Shown: positions 1 through 5,701 of the stretch, one piece after another
Numbering within the stretch: position 1 is the first letter of the stretch
How the letters are laid out: every line of letters begins with the position of its first letter
DNA from: Bacteroidota bacterium
GTDB lineage: Bacteria > Bacteroidota > Ignavibacteria > UBA10030 > UBA6906
Assembly (NCBI GenBank): GCA_030835135.1
Contig: JAUQWO010000013.1
Span: 1-64,000 of the forward strand
Direction of reading: 5' to 3'
DNA length: 64,000 nt
Made by a program: the position numbers and the translations under genes
Notes under the pieces: generated by a model
Database searches by the model: none
What the model was told of the DNA's origin: nothing
What the model saw: only the letters and a program-made list of their open reading frames with translations

Positions 1-1273
1 GTCGAAGTAGGATGTGACAAGCGGCACGAGCAGCCCCGGCACCAGCGTCGTCCCGATCACATACCAGAGCTTGATCACCGATGGGACGGCAAGCGCAAGC
101 CCGATCGCCAGCACCGCGCTCACCACCATCCCCCACTGCACGCGCCGCTGCTCACGCCTCCCTGCCTCCTCCCGTTCCACGGCATCTCCGTACCGCTCTC
201 CGCCCCCCGGCCCACCGTCGATCCGGTGTGCCGGGCTGCCGCCCTTCATCAATCTCACCATGTCCCGCCCGAGCATCGTCCCCGAGACCAGCATCAGCGT
301 ATTGAGCGTGGACATCATGGTCGCGAGCAATCCAACGAAGAAGAATCCTTTCGCTACCGGAGGCAGCAGCGCTTCGGCGATGAGCGGGTACGCCATCACC
401 GGATGCGCAAGTCCGGGCAACGCGGCGCGCGCATACAATCCGACGGTCGCGGTCATCATGTCGAATACCAGCCAGAACACCACCGACCAGAGGATCCCCT
501 TGCGCGCGACCTCGGGAGACGAGGCCGCGGCACACCGCTGATAGAATGACGGATCGACGAGGGTCCACAGCGCAATGAAGAACCAGACGATGATGAATTG
601 GGGCGATGCTCCCCCGTGCCACGCCAGATGCAGCGGAGGGAGATGCGTCGTAAGGAAATCCCACCCGCCGTACGCTTGCACCGCAAAGGGTATGATGAGT
701 CCGAAGCCGGCGAACATCAGTATGAACTCGTACACATCGGTGTACACATCGGCCCGGAATCCACCGGCAAGCAGAAACACGCCGGTGACGATCGTGCCGC
801 CGAGGATGCAGAGCGGCAGCCCCCACCCGGTGATCATCTGCAGGAGGACCCCGATCATCAGGACATACGGAGCCGGCGTCATGAGCAGAAAGGTCAGCCA
901 CGCCCCCAGGAAGGCGGTGCGACGGTCATACACCTGTTCGAGACGGTCAGGAATGGTGGTCCCCCCGGCAGCGCGGATCCTGCCAGCCAGGAGGAACGCA
1001 AAGAGAATGGCAAAGATGTAGTACGGCACACCCTGCATCACCCAGGTGGCAATGCCGACGGTGTACGTGAACTCGCCGACACCGAGGATGCCTCCGTACC
1101 AGGTGGACACCAGGGTCATCACGAACACCGGCACGGTGAGCGTGCGTCCGGCAAGCAGGAATTCCACCGCACTCCGCGCACGCTGCCGGCGGGCGGCATA
1201 CCAGCCGATACCAAGCACGCCGATCACGTAGAGCAGCACCACGGCGATGTCCCACGGCGAAAACCGGATCATG
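1..1273 (-). CDS. SSS-family sodium:solute symporter (3' end outside window)
   Basis: The reverse-strand frame is open from an ATG at 1273 to the window edge, so the C-terminus is missing (about 424 residues visible). The protein starts MIRFSPWDIAVVLLYVIGVL and has about ten hydrophobic segments. STWYGGILGVGEFTY, early in the chain, resembles the Na+/substrate region of sodium:solute symporters, and a later segment reads ATMMSTLNTLMLVSGTMLGRD, also typical of the family. It lies 28 bp downstream of thiamine pyrophosphokinase and behind the TPP riboswitch. By context it is the inner-membrane step for thiamine or a thiamine precursor. The family assignment is firm; the substrate is inferred only from the operon. 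Confidence 0.85.
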
Positions 1274-1301
1274 CGCCGCTCCCGCTTTCATCCCGGAGCA
1301 T

Positions 1302-1931
1302 TCAGTCCTCTCCAAACCGCGTCAGTACGAGCACCAGGAGCCGGCCGTGCCTGACACTCACGGAGAACGACCGTCCGCGAACGACATTGCTGACGGCTAC
1401 ATCACCGGTGCGGAAGGATCCCTCGACGAGCGGATACCGGAGTCCGCGAAGCGTGACCCCGGAACACGACCCGAAGGGGACCAGGCTGACCTTTGTACCG
1501 GACGGCGCAACAAAGCGCCGGAGGCCGGTGATCGGCACGGCATACCAATCCTCCCCCACGAAGCAGATGTCCATGTCAGGCAGGTAGTGCCAGCACACGG
1601 AGAGGTTCGCCAGTGTCATGTCCAGCCTGCGCCCCGTGGCCCCGGCGATGATCATCGCCGTATCGCCTTCGGCAGCGCAATGGTCCAGGGCCTTTTCGAG
1701 GTCGGTGTTGTCCTGGCTCGGGATATGGATCGTGGGCACGGTGCGGAAGGTCCGGCGCGTGGCAGGCGTCACCGAATCGAGGTCGCCAAGGATAAGGTCC
1801 GGCACGAGTCCGGCCGAACGGACCGCGTTGGCACCGCCATCCGCAGCCACCAACCGGTCGGCCCGTGTGAGCATGCGTCGCACAAGATCACGCGACGGCG
1901 GCTCACCATTGCACACAAGCAGGGTTGTCAT
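1302..1931 (-). CDS. thiN: thiamine pyrophosphokinase
   Basis: A 209-residue protein of the size usual for bacterial thiamine pyrophosphokinase, which transfers pyrophosphate from ATP to thiamine to give TPP in the cytoplasm. Visible family motifs are AADGGAN, GDLDS, QDNTDLEKAL and GATGRRLDMTLAN, which cover the ATP/Mg and substrate sites of the N-terminal domain; a C-terminal beta-rich thiamine-binding domain follows. It sits between an outer-membrane receptor (16 bp upstream) and a sodium symporter (28 bp downstream), all behind a TPP riboswitch. This fits salvage of imported thiamine: the product TPP would shut the operon down. Confidence 0.93.
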   Translation of the reverse strand: MTTLLVCNGEPPSRDLVRRMLTRADRLVAADGGANAVRSAGLVPDLILGDLDSVTPATRRTFRTVPTIHIPSQDNTDLEKALDHCAAEGDTAMIIAGATGRRLDMTLANLSVCWHYLPDMDICFVGEDWYAVPITGLRRFVAPSGTKVSLVPFGSCSGVTLRGLRYPLVEGSFRTGDVAVSNVVRGRSFSVSVRHGRLLVLVLTRFGED

Positions 1932-1946
1932 GAGAAGCTCCTCCTG

Positions 1947-4364
1947 TCAGAGCATGATCGCGATCTGAAAGAACGCGTTGCGTTCCGCACCCACGAAGAA
2001 CTGATCGCCCTCACCATACGCAGCGTACAGCGTGTCGAAGATGTTGTTCACCTGCAGCTTCGCCTCGAGGTCCACATCCTGCAGGACGCCCTGGAACAGC
2101 CAGGAACATGCCGCATCGGCGACGAAGAACGGATCTACCGTGCGTGCATCGTCCCGGAGATTATCGGTGTATTGCTTCCCAATGTACCTCCCGGAAACTG
2201 AAAATGAAAATGGCCCGTGCCGGTGCCCCACTCGGAGGTTGGCGAGGAACGACGGGAATCCCGCGATCGGGTTGCCATCGAGGGACTGGCCGGTGCCGGA
2301 GGAGAAATCCGTGTGCCGGACGAAGACATTCCGGCTCAGGGTCGCATGGGCCTCTACATCCAGTACCTCGCCGATCCGCACCCGGCCACCCGCCTCCACT
2401 CCGAGATGACGTGTCCGGGCCGCGTTCCCCGTGATCGGCTGACCGAACCTGTCCACCTGGCCACTCTTCACGATCTCATCGGTGAATTCCATCCAGTACA
2501 GGTTCGCCGAGAACCTCATGTCATCGCCTGTGTAGCCGCCTCCGAGTTCCACATCCAGCAGCCCCTCGGGCTTGACCAGCGGGGCGCTGAGATCGAATCT
2601 CCCTGCTGGATCCTGCCGGAACTGCGGCGTCACGCCACCCCATGAGGACGGAGTGCTCGCTTCAGCGGCATCATACAGGTTCTTCAGCCGGGGTTCGCGC
2701 CGGGTGTACCCGATACTCGTGTAGATGTTCCAGAACGGGTCGAGGTTCGCGTTCACACCGATGCGCGGATTCACGAAGTGGTACGGCACCGTGAAGTCGG
2801 TCCCGACGAATTTCTCATCGTACAAGCGGTACCGGTTGTACGCATACTGCAGTGAACCCATGAGCGTCATCGCCGACGGCATCTCCTGGACCATATGGAC
2901 ATATGCCGATACCATATCCTTGGCCCCCCGGTATTGGTAATACCGATGGTCCAACGGGACCCCCGCCGGTACCTCCTGTGCCCATTGCACGCGCCCCCAG
3001 TGTTCGGAACGATGCACCCGCACTTCCCCGCCGACGATCACCTCACCGGTCCCATGTTTCCACGTGAGGCGTGGGAGAAACCCCCACTGCCGGTTCTCCA
3101 CCTTCGCGCGGATGAGGGCTCCGGACAGAAAGAGCGTGTCCGGGTCGCCGCTCACCGCAAAGCCGTTCTCCCGCGTGATGCGGAAATACGAATACGGTGC
3201 CCAGGAACCGTCATAATCAAAAAACCCCTCGCCCAGGACGAGGAAGGCCGTAGAGTTCAACGTCAGGGCCGGTGTGAGATGCCACTCATGCAGTATCTCG
3301 TAATGCGGCTGTGAGAAATTCTCGATCTCTTCCGGCCGTGCGATGGGATTGGCCCGCCGCCGGTCGCGGTCCCCCACATCCGCTTTCGGGATGCCATAGT
3401 ACGCAAGACCATCGGACACGGGTCCGCCGTAGATGTGCACCTGCGTGGTCATCGTCGCATCATAGCGCGCAAACCCGAAGAAGTAGCTGTTGAAATCTGC
3501 CCAGGCCCGGTCGCGATACCCGCTGCTCATGATCTTCGACACGCGTGCGTGCAGGGCGTACGTGTTGTCCAGGAGTCCGGAGGAAAATGACGCCGCATAT
3601 TTCCTGGTGTTGTAGCTCCCGATGCCCGCGAGGAGTTGCACCGATCGGTCGCGCCCGAAATGTGAGGTGACCAGGTTCACGGACCCACCGATCGCCGGCG
3701 GACCGTAGAACGAACTCCCCGCCCCCCGCTGAACCTGAATATCCTCCACGCTCGCAGCGATGTCCGGAAAGTCCAGCCAGTACACATTGTGGTCCTCCGG
3801 ATCGTTCTGGGGGATGCCATTCACCATCACCGCGATACGGCGTGCGTCGAAACCCCGGATGTTGAGATAGGTGTAGCCGATCCCGTTGCCGCTCTCGGAG
3901 TAGTAGGTGGTGGAAGGCAGCTCGGCGAGGAGTGCCGGGATATCCTGGACCGTGTACCGTTCCCTGAGCGACTGTCCTTCGAGGGTCGCAAATGCGGCCG
4001 GGGTCTCCCGCTCGCGTCCGCGCGTGGCGGTAACGGTCATGGGTTGACCCGGCAGGACCGTGGGCATGAGCACCACGACCACATCGAGCGGTACATCATC
4101 GGTGACCGTGATGCCGGAGACGGAAGGGGTGTAGCCCACGAAGGTTGTGCGCAGCGTGGTGAGGCCCGCCGGAACTCCCGTGAACACGCAGGAGCCGCTG
4201 CTGTCGGTCTCTCCTGCGATCGATGCCGTCCCGATGACGCAATGCGCGCCGGCGAGCGGACGTCGATGTTCGCCATCGCGCACGGTGACGCGCACCGTGC
4301 CCGACAGTGCGTCACCGATGGCGATCGTCAGAATGGCACAGACAGTAAGAAGTGTTCGATGCAT
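1947..4364 (-). CDS. TonB-dependent outer-membrane receptor, probable thiamine uptake
   Basis: An 805-residue receptor. Residues 1-22 are a signal peptide. Residues about 23-105 form a carboxypeptidase-regulatory-like beta domain (GAHCVIG...GLTTLRTTFVGYTP), common on FCB receptors. The plug follows at about 110-235 (LRERYTVQDIPALLAELPSTTYY, then NIRGFDARRIAVMVNGIPQNDPEDHNVYWLD), then a 22-strand-type barrel to the C-terminus. The ATG at 4364 is preceded by a strong GGAGGGAGG ribosome site at 4370-4378. It is the first gene behind a TPP riboswitch and terminator, so the transported compound is most likely thiamine or a related molecule. Substrate is inference; family is clear. Confidence 0.9.
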   Translation of the reverse strand: MHRTLLTVCAILTIAIGDALSGTVRVTVRDGEHRRPLAGAHCVIGTASIAGETDSSGSCVFTGVPAGLTTLRTTFVGYTPSVSGITVTDDVPLDVVVVLMPTVLPGQPMTVTATRGRERETPAAFATLEGQSLRERYTVQDIPALLAELPSTTYYSESGNGIGYTYLNIRGFDARRIAVMVNGIPQNDPEDHNVYWLDFPDIAASVEDIQVQRGAGSSFYGPPAIGGSVNLVTSHFGRDRSVQLLAGIGSYNTRKYAASFSSGLLDNTYALHARVSKIMSSGYRDRAWADFNSYFFGFARYDATMTTQVHIYGGPVSDGLAYYGIPKADVGDRDRRRANPIARPEEIENFSQPHYEILHEWHLTPALTLNSTAFLVLGEGFFDYDGSWAPYSYFRITRENGFAVSGDPDTLFLSGALIRAKVENRQWGFLPRLTWKHGTGEVIVGGEVRVHRSEHWGRVQWAQEVPAGVPLDHRYYQYRGAKDMVSAYVHMVQEMPSAMTLMGSLQYAYNRYRLYDEKFVGTDFTVPYHFVNPRIGVNANLDPFWNIYTSIGYTRREPRLKNLYDAAEASTPSSWGGVTPQFRQDPAGRFDLSAPLVKPEGLLDVELGGGYTGDDMRFSANLYWMEFTDEIVKSGQVDRFGQPITGNAARTRHLGVEAGGRVRIGEVLDVEAHATLSRNVFVRHTDFSSGTGQSLDGNPIAGFPSFLANLRVGHRHGPFSFSVSGRYIGKQYTDNLRDDARTVDPFFVADAACSWLFQGVLQDVDLEAKLQVNNIFDTLYAAYGEGDQFFVGAERNAFFQIAIML

Positions 4365-4378
4365 GTCTTCCTCCCTCC

Positions 4379-4426
4379 AAAAAGCAACAAGCCGCTTCTC
4401 CGGCTGGGGTTCCCGGGAGAAACGGC
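4379..4426 (-). terminator. riboswitch-associated intrinsic terminator in the thiamine operon leader
   Basis: On the minus strand an 11-bp stem (arms 4416-4426 and 4391-4401, one G-U pair) encloses a 14-nt loop. A U-rich run complementary to 4379-4390 follows. It lies between the TPP aptamer and the receptor's ribosome site, so the leader most likely controls transcription by premature termination when TPP is bound. No antiterminator pairing was modelled. Confidence 0.78.
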
Positions 4427-4454
4427 GTGCATGGCGGAAGAACGCGACTGCATC

Positions 4455-4533
4455 CGTTTCCCTACGCTGGTATGGCCCAGATCAGGTTCCAGGGTGTGAT
4501 CTCAGTCCAACGCCGTGCGCCGGACACCCCTAA
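4455..4533 (-). promoter_or_regulatory. TPP riboswitch (THI box)
   Basis: Read on the minus strand, the leader contains the diagnostic THI-box blocks in order: GGGGTG, GGACTGAGA, ACCCT, GAACCTGATCTGG and ATACCAGCGTAGGGA. CTGAGA and ACCTGATC form the pyrimidine-sensing part, and the CAGCGTAGGGA block closes the pyrophosphate-sensing arm. It precedes receptor, thiamine pyrophosphokinase and symporter genes. Known behaviour of the class is repression of the downstream operon on TPP binding. Confidence 0.95.
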
Positions 4534-4543
4534 CGGTAATACT

Positions 4544-4574
4544 GCATGGTACCGCTCTCCGCGCTCAGAAGCAA
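4544..4574 (-). promoter_or_regulatory. promoter of the thiamine operon
   Basis: TTG (complement of 4572-4574), 20-nt spacer, then TACCATGC (complement of 4544-4551). The spacing equals that of the other promoters here; the -7 box is a weaker match to TAnnTTTG. Transcription would begin just upstream of the riboswitch. Confidence 0.5.
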
Positions 4575-4642: not shown

Positions 4643-5701
4643 ATGAATGTCATGCGCCCGTCCACAGAACGCTGTTTCCATTATAGCGCGGAGATCGTCC
4701 GCATTCTCCGATCCACCCAGCATTACGAACGTGTCCTCTCGCTCATCGTCGACCGGATCGTCCGCTCGCTCCAATGTCAGACCTGCGCCATCGCCCTGAT
4801 CGACCCACAGACCGAATACCTGCGCATCGACCAGTGTCACAACCTGTCGTTGACGTTCTGCAAATCGTTCCGGCGGCGGATCACGACCACGACCATCGGC
4901 CAGCTGCTCTGGACCGGGAAACCGGTGGTCATCGCGGACGCGGCCATGCAGCCCGAGCACGCCGCTGAAGTACAGCTGGAACACCCGTTCGGGTCGTGTG
5001 TGCTCGTCCAGATCGCGATCGATCAGCGTACGCTGGGATATCTCCACGTGGATGACAGTGCGCCGGGAAAATTCGATGACGCGGATGTCGAGATGCTCCA
5101 GCTCTTCGCCGACCTCTGCAGCGTGGCGATCAACAAGACCACCCTGCAGGAAGAGAACCTCCGCCTGGAGCGGGTCGACCGTGAGACCGGTCTCGAGAAA
5201 TTCGGCCCGTTCCTCGAACATGCCCGGAGCGCCGTTGAACGCGCCGATGAGTTCGGGGAACAGTTCACCGTACTCCTGCTGGACGTCGACAACTTCAAGG
5301 AGACCGTGAACACGTACGGCTATGCGGTGTCACGGCAACTGCTGCACGAACTCGGGAGCATCGTGCAGAGCCGTACCCGTCCGGTGGATGCCGCTGCCCG
5401 CTATGGGTTCGACGAATGCATCCTGCTGCTCTCCCGGACCGATCTCGACGAGGGGCTCGCTGCTGCGAATGAACTCCGGCAGAGGATCGCGGACCACGTC
5501 TTCACCGAACAGGGCATACGGAGCACGGTCAGTATCGGTGTGGGAGCGTTTCCAGGGAGCGGGAAGTCGATCGATGCCCTGCTCGTGGCAACCAAAGAGG
5601 CGCTCTTCGAAGCGCAAAGGCAGGGACGCAATATCGTCCACGCGGACAGGCCTGACCGGCACCATGCGCCGACACCGGTGCCATCGGCAACACTGAACTG
5701 A
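4643..5701 (+). CDS. GAF domain protein with degenerate GGDEF domain
   Basis: 352 residues with no signal peptide or membrane segment, so probably cytoplasmic. An N-terminal GAF sensor domain spans about 20-165 (YERVLSLIVDRIVRSLQCQT to LQLFADLCSVAINKT). A GGDEF-family fold follows at about 178-340: DRETGL, FTVLLLDVDNFKETVN, then STVSIGVGAFP. At the active-site loop the signature reads GFDEC instead of GG(D/E)EF. Diguanylate cyclase activity is therefore unlikely; a role as effector-binding or signalling partner is more plausible. It stands alone between a divergent thiamine operon and an Fpg-like gene 22 bp downstream, with which it may be cotranscribed. Confidence 0.85.
   Translation: MNVMRPSTERCFHYSAEIVRILRSTQHYERVLSLIVDRIVRSLQCQTCAIALIDPQTEYLRIDQCHNLSLTFCKSFRRRITTTTIGQLLWTGKPVVIADAAMQPEHAAEVQLEHPFGSCVLVQIAIDQRTLGYLHVDDSAPGKFDDADVEMLQLFADLCSVAINKTTLQEENLRLERVDRETGLEKFGPFLEHARSAVERADEFGEQFTVLLLDVDNFKETVNTYGYAVSRQLLHELGSIVQSRTRPVDAAARYGFDECILLLSRTDLDEGLAAANELRQRIADHVFTEQGIRSTVSIGVGAFPGSGKSIDALLVATKEALFEAQRQGRNIVHADRPDRHHAPTPVPSATLN

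Follow-up and report, generated by a model that had tools for sequence, protein, structure and literature searches.

The locus raises the question of which solute is moved by an SSS-family Na+:solute symporter that is encoded behind a TPP riboswitch, a TonB receptor and thiN. The window (the whole 64,000-nt stretch of DNA that was analysed) carries these elements on its minus strand, in the order TPP riboswitch, TonB receptor, thiN and SSS symporter.

Gene content of the operon

Genes were identified from matches above curated Pfam cut-offs and, for ThiN, above the NCBIfam cut-off as well. The first gene (1947..4364, minus strand) encodes an 805-aa TonB-dependent outer-membrane receptor with PF00593, PF07715 and PF13620 domains; receptors hold the equivalent place in related operons, and this one is a candidate thiamine receptor (OMthi-like). 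After a gap of 15 bases, thiN (1302..1931, minus strand) encodes a thiamine pyrophosphokinase of 209 aa (TIGR01378, PF04263, PF04265), with a TIGR01378 score of 144.3 bits against a curated cut-off of 76.4. A further 29 bases separate thiN from the symporter gene (1..1272, minus strand), a candidate thiamine importer that scored 81 bits in a profile search with PF00474 (cut-off 22.8) and matched TIGR00813 below its cut-off only. This last gene runs off the contig, base 1 of the window being the start of contig C65, so that the 424 N-terminal residues are present and the C-terminus is absent. An earlier note on this DNA had called the three families from motifs and described a three-gene operon; the profiles bear out the family calls and the gene order stands, but the symporter is incomplete.

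Divergently from the operon, positions 4643-5701 of the window encode a GAF-GGDEF protein (a candidate diguanylate cyclase). Beyond it lie genes for an Fpg-type glycosylase, a protein without assignment, an OmpA-domain protein and a DinB-family protein.

Riboswitch and transcription switch

The TPP riboswitch aptamer (THI element; 4442..4541, minus strand) was matched by RF00059 over the full model length with 65.4 bits (gathering score 54.3, E 1.4e-10), which confirms the clear THI box described in the earlier note, and it is the sole copy in the 4.9-Mb genome. It is followed by an intrinsic terminator hairpin (4391..4426, minus strand) with an 11-bp stem, in which GCCGUUUCUCC pairs with GGAGAAGCGGC (4426-4416 with 4401-4391, one G-U pair), and then by a U-rich tail read directly from the sequence (UUGUUGCUUUUU; 4379..4390, minus strand). 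The 3' strand of P1 and its flank, GGGAAACGG (4454..4462, minus strand), can instead serve as the 5' half of an antiterminator; it was recognized from constrained folds and from folds of growing transcripts. Its partner is CCGUUUCUC, which lies within the 5' arm of the terminator, and the two halves form 9 bp (4462-4454 with 4425-4417). In the folds of growing transcripts, the GGGAAACGG/CCGUUUCUC helix belonged to the best structure until the 3' arm of the terminator was complete. In the full leader, P1 and the terminator were favoured (−70.8 kcal/mol vs −64.5 kcal/mol with the antiterminator enforced).

The leader therefore has a terminator and an antiterminator that exclude each other, the latter drawing on the 3' strand of P1. 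This is the anatomy of a transcription-terminating TPP off-switch, with termination itself predicted from the folds. The earlier note had rested the off-switch on an 11-bp terminator with a U tract. The 11-bp stem holds and the antiterminator is added to it; the U tract falls short of perfect, and the folding energy of the leader is not extreme for its composition (z −1.3). The off-switch shows better in the 9-bp antiterminator than in the U tract or the overall folding energy. At low TPP, the 3' strand of P1 would capture the terminator's 5' arm, giving antitermination and read-through into the operon; with TPP bound, P1 would hold, the terminator would form and transcription would stop.

Related leaders share this logic. 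TPP riboswitches in related loci were searched by using our own model rather than that of Rfam, and the 35 leaders with a recognized core, the window's included, were scored. A terminator with a U-rich tail plus an antiterminator of 7 bp or more was present in 19 of these 35, with 0.2 expected from shuffled leaders; 19 is a low figure, because the core motif could not be located in seven further leaders, which were left unscored, and several hairpins that are evident by eye did not satisfy the rule. One related locus (L085; G254:C190) carries two TPP riboswitch matches on a contig of 4.7 kb, the end of which truncates one of the two.

Distribution in the class and exchange with PnuT

Orthologues of the symporter were counted at E 1e-20 or better and were present, generally in single copy, in 226 of 294 genomes of the organism's class, most likely Ignavibacteria. 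TPP riboswitches were found in 283 of these genomes, ThiN in 276, ThiC in 37 and PnuT above cut-off in 28. Adjacency could be checked in the 108 genomes with positions printed for both genes, and the symporter adjoins thiN in 100 of them. The other eight all belong to family f7, with the two genes on separate contigs in seven genomes and approximately 185 kb apart in one. These genomes are G001, G012, G022, G032, G042, G052, G061 and G075, and in G001 the TPP-TonB-thiN part is separate from the symporter. Two initial batches, the second partly picked by eye, gave 40 symporter loci; alongside the symporter, all had a TonB receptor and 39 a thiN match. The genome search proposed at the outset, for SSS symporters behind TPP riboswitches with thiN and a TonB receptor, thus recovered the arrangement as the rule in the class; the rarity that the earlier note had implied does not hold, and the arrangement had also been reported before from Caldithrix (PMC5317091).

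The order TPP-TonB-thiN-SSS was also found in loci named Kryptoniota, KSB1 and Marinimicrobia, and in the tree the Kryptoniota-named symporters cluster with those of the class. When contigs were searched for the symporter, an alignment query gave matches and a single-protein query gave none. Three loci named Armatimonadetes or Chthonomonadales (L159:82-3096, L167:205-3187 and L186:5247-8422) have a prepilin-like protein between the TPP riboswitch and thiN-SSS, in the usual place of the receptor; these proteins carry an N_methyl motif and DUF1559 (the latter below cut-off in L186). In genomes G004, G015 and G054 (family f9), which have two or three TPP riboswitches, searches for thiN, PnuT, ThiC and the symporter gave no match; ThiE is present in G004 and G054. 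Two apparent gene fusions were rejected. A ThiN-SSS fusion in L055/L111 (683-aa frame) has two N bases at the junction, an assembly gap, and inspection of the TonB-ThiN candidate in L063 suggests that the receptor part shifts frame before ThiN.

Co-occurrence within the class was evaluated using Fisher tests that treat genomes as independent and ignore shared ancestry: SSS and PnuT occur together in only three genomes (4.5e-15; one of the three has a weak symporter match), SSS and ThiC in four (2e-20), and SSS and ThiE (E below 1e-20) in 13 (6e-17). Genomes without the symporter have PnuT in the same slot or their own thiamine synthesis. PnuT lies directly 3' of thiN in 10 of the 11 checkable genomes without SSS, in agreement with the proposal that the symporter fills the inner-membrane slot of PnuT.

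In the window's genome (completeness given as 100%), ThiC, ThiE, PnuT, ThiT and ThiB were searched and gave no match; no PF04973 match was returned that would place the symporter with PnuT, and the symporter belongs to PF00474. A 26-bit partial match was not counted as ThiG. In these searches, both ThiE and ThiC are missing from 213 of the 226 symporter genomes, the window's included. In the known route, ThiE joins HMP and thiazole. Where ThiE is absent the two cannot be joined in this way, and intact thiamine is then most likely required; for the window's organism this would mean thiamine and not its precursor HMP.

These data bear on two other possible cargoes. The symporter might import not thiamine but HMP, or a related pyrimidine precursor, as proposed for ThiV of SAR11, an SSS protein behind a TPP riboswitch and the likely HMP importer (PMC11452348), and a precursor could be the cargo in the 13 SSS genomes with ThiE. 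We regard this as improbable, since the 213 genomes lacking both enzymes could not turn HMP into thiamine by the known route, the neighbouring ThiN acts on thiamine, and PnuT, which otherwise fills this slot, is a thiamine transporter (PMC5613172). Uptake of phosphorylated thiamine (TMP or TPP) would suit a genome that needs some preformed thiamine compound, and these esters may be available from the environment. The conserved ThiN would be superfluous for TPP import, though, and the data appear to hold no pointer to a phosphate-binding pocket; the chance that the operon takes up these esters is very slight. Thiamine itself, the substrate that had first been deduced from the position of the gene, is the likely cargo in a genome that has no known route of thiamine assembly.

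Relatives of the symporter and a proposed uptake route

A tree was built with 14 SSS paralogues of the window's genome, E. coli PutP and PanF, three plasmid SSS proteins and two choline transporters as references, many of which have long branches whose order is unsure. The 54 operon-type symporters formed one clade (SH-aLRT 99), apart from the 14 paralogues, PutP and PanF; clustering with sugar or amino-acid transporters that are not linked to riboswitches, named beforehand as evidence against a thiamine importer, was not seen among these references. The plasmid SSS matches were rejected as proxies for ThiV, as no thiamine genes lie beside the three that were inspected, and a Proteus match was rejected as SiaT, being PutP-like in appearance.

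An AlphaFold model of the full-length L110 orthologue (pLDDT 93) has an SSS-type fold, which together with the PF00474 match places the symporter in the SSS (SLC5) family. Human CHT1 was the best structural match (Z 40.0, 2.7 Å over 457 residues, 19% identity), followed closely by SiaT and SGLT (Z 34 to 40 over all three). In a profile alignment to sfCHT, counterparts of CHT1 W62, Y91, Q259, R260 and R47 are conserved (W62 and Y91 are kept in 28/30 and 29/30), and W406 aligns to a conserved tryptophan. The aromatic choline box (W62, Y91, W141, W254, W406) is incomplete, with three of the five aromatics conserved, W141 replaced by V/M/T/S and W254 without an aligned column. At the predicted counterpart of the sfCHT Na+ site the symporters have S, T and Y, with E or Q in the position of Q226. 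Since choline, like thiamine, is a cation bearing a hydroxyethyl group, a choline-type pocket reshaped for thiamine is plausible.

CHT1/sfCHT are the best match in fold and, among solved structures, in sequence, and share several pocket and gate residues with the operon symporters; at approximately 19% identity, however, the latter lack counterparts of W141 and W254 and are linked to thiN. The symporter could still move choline or another organic cation and stand in the operon for a different reason, given that its nearest solved relatives carry choline and that part of the aromatic pocket is kept. The lack of these two choline-site residues, the way the symporter stays linked to thiN and the TPP riboswitch, and its exchange with PnuT favour thiamine and leave the choline reading with a low probability.

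A thiamine-linked symporter of this kind is not unusual: the arrangement is standard across the class and was reported earlier from Caldithrix, and other SSS symporters under TPP riboswitch control are known (ThiV of SAR11, Dur31 and SSSP/SSSQ). The name ThiV is reportedly from Rodionov 2002. In Caldithrix abyssi, a 2017 account placed a TPP riboswitch, a TonB receptor, a sodium-solute symporter and a thiamin pyrophosphokinase in one locus (Cabys_3975-3977), the same components as in the window, in an organism with an incomplete thiamine pathway (PMC5317091). That account concerns one species of another phylum and assigns thiamine transport to the TonB receptor; the portion of it consulted holds no symporter survey and no PnuT exchange (PMC5317091). 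The OMthi-pnuT-tnr3 operon of Bacteroides, in which OMthi and PnuT were tested genetically, likewise combines a TPP riboswitch, a TonB receptor, an inner-membrane transporter and a pyrophosphate-forming enzyme, but with PnuT instead of SSS, and B. thetaiotaomicron also synthesises thiamine (PMC5613172). SSS symporters behind TPP riboswitches are described from SAR11 (ThiV), algae (SSSP/SSSQ) and other lineages (PMC11452348, PMC4260697). They resemble the window's symporter by description, in family and in TPP riboswitch control, and differ in the link to HMP uptake in SAR11 and in that the sections of these sources at hand report no TonB-thiN operon (PMC11452348, PMC4260697). Residues Y78, D139 and F254 (SiaT numbering) are given for ThiV/SSSP in the excerpt of one of them (PMC11452348). 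Dur31 of Candida is SLC5/SSS-type, under TPP riboswitch control and shown to transport thiamin; it is likened to the window's symporter by description, and differs in being fungal and DUR3-related (PMC5997356).

Overall, the operon is most likely one of TPP-repressed thiamine uptake and activation, with the symporter as a candidate Na+-coupled thiamine importer that replaces PnuT. The TonB receptor would carry thiamine across the outer membrane and the symporter, driven by Na+, across the inner membrane; ThiN would convert it to TPP, which would retain thiamine in the cell and close the feedback loop. Na+-coupled thiamine import is the best reading of the symporter, with its substrate, Na+ coupling and inward direction all predicted. 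Points that weigh against it are the eight f7 genomes in which the symporter and thiN lie apart, the lack of conserved counterparts of W141 and W254, and the presence of ThiE in 13 symporter genomes. For the wider group, we lean towards the view that these symporters constitute an SSS clade of their own, close to the choline transporters, and that Ignavibacteria, together with parts of Kryptoniota, KSB1, Marinimicrobia and Armatimonadota, rely chiefly on it for Na+-coupled import of intact thiamine, the clade having swapped places with PnuT.

What this analysis adds is the exchange with PnuT across the class and the argument for thiamine rather than HMP as cargo. If true, a thiamine importer would be named for a large, mostly uncultivated group of auxotrophs, and a symporter annotated merely as generic SSS would be given a substrate. 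PnuT would then be an exchangeable part of the thiamine operon, and the prediction of which community members depend on the thiamine of others would be aided.
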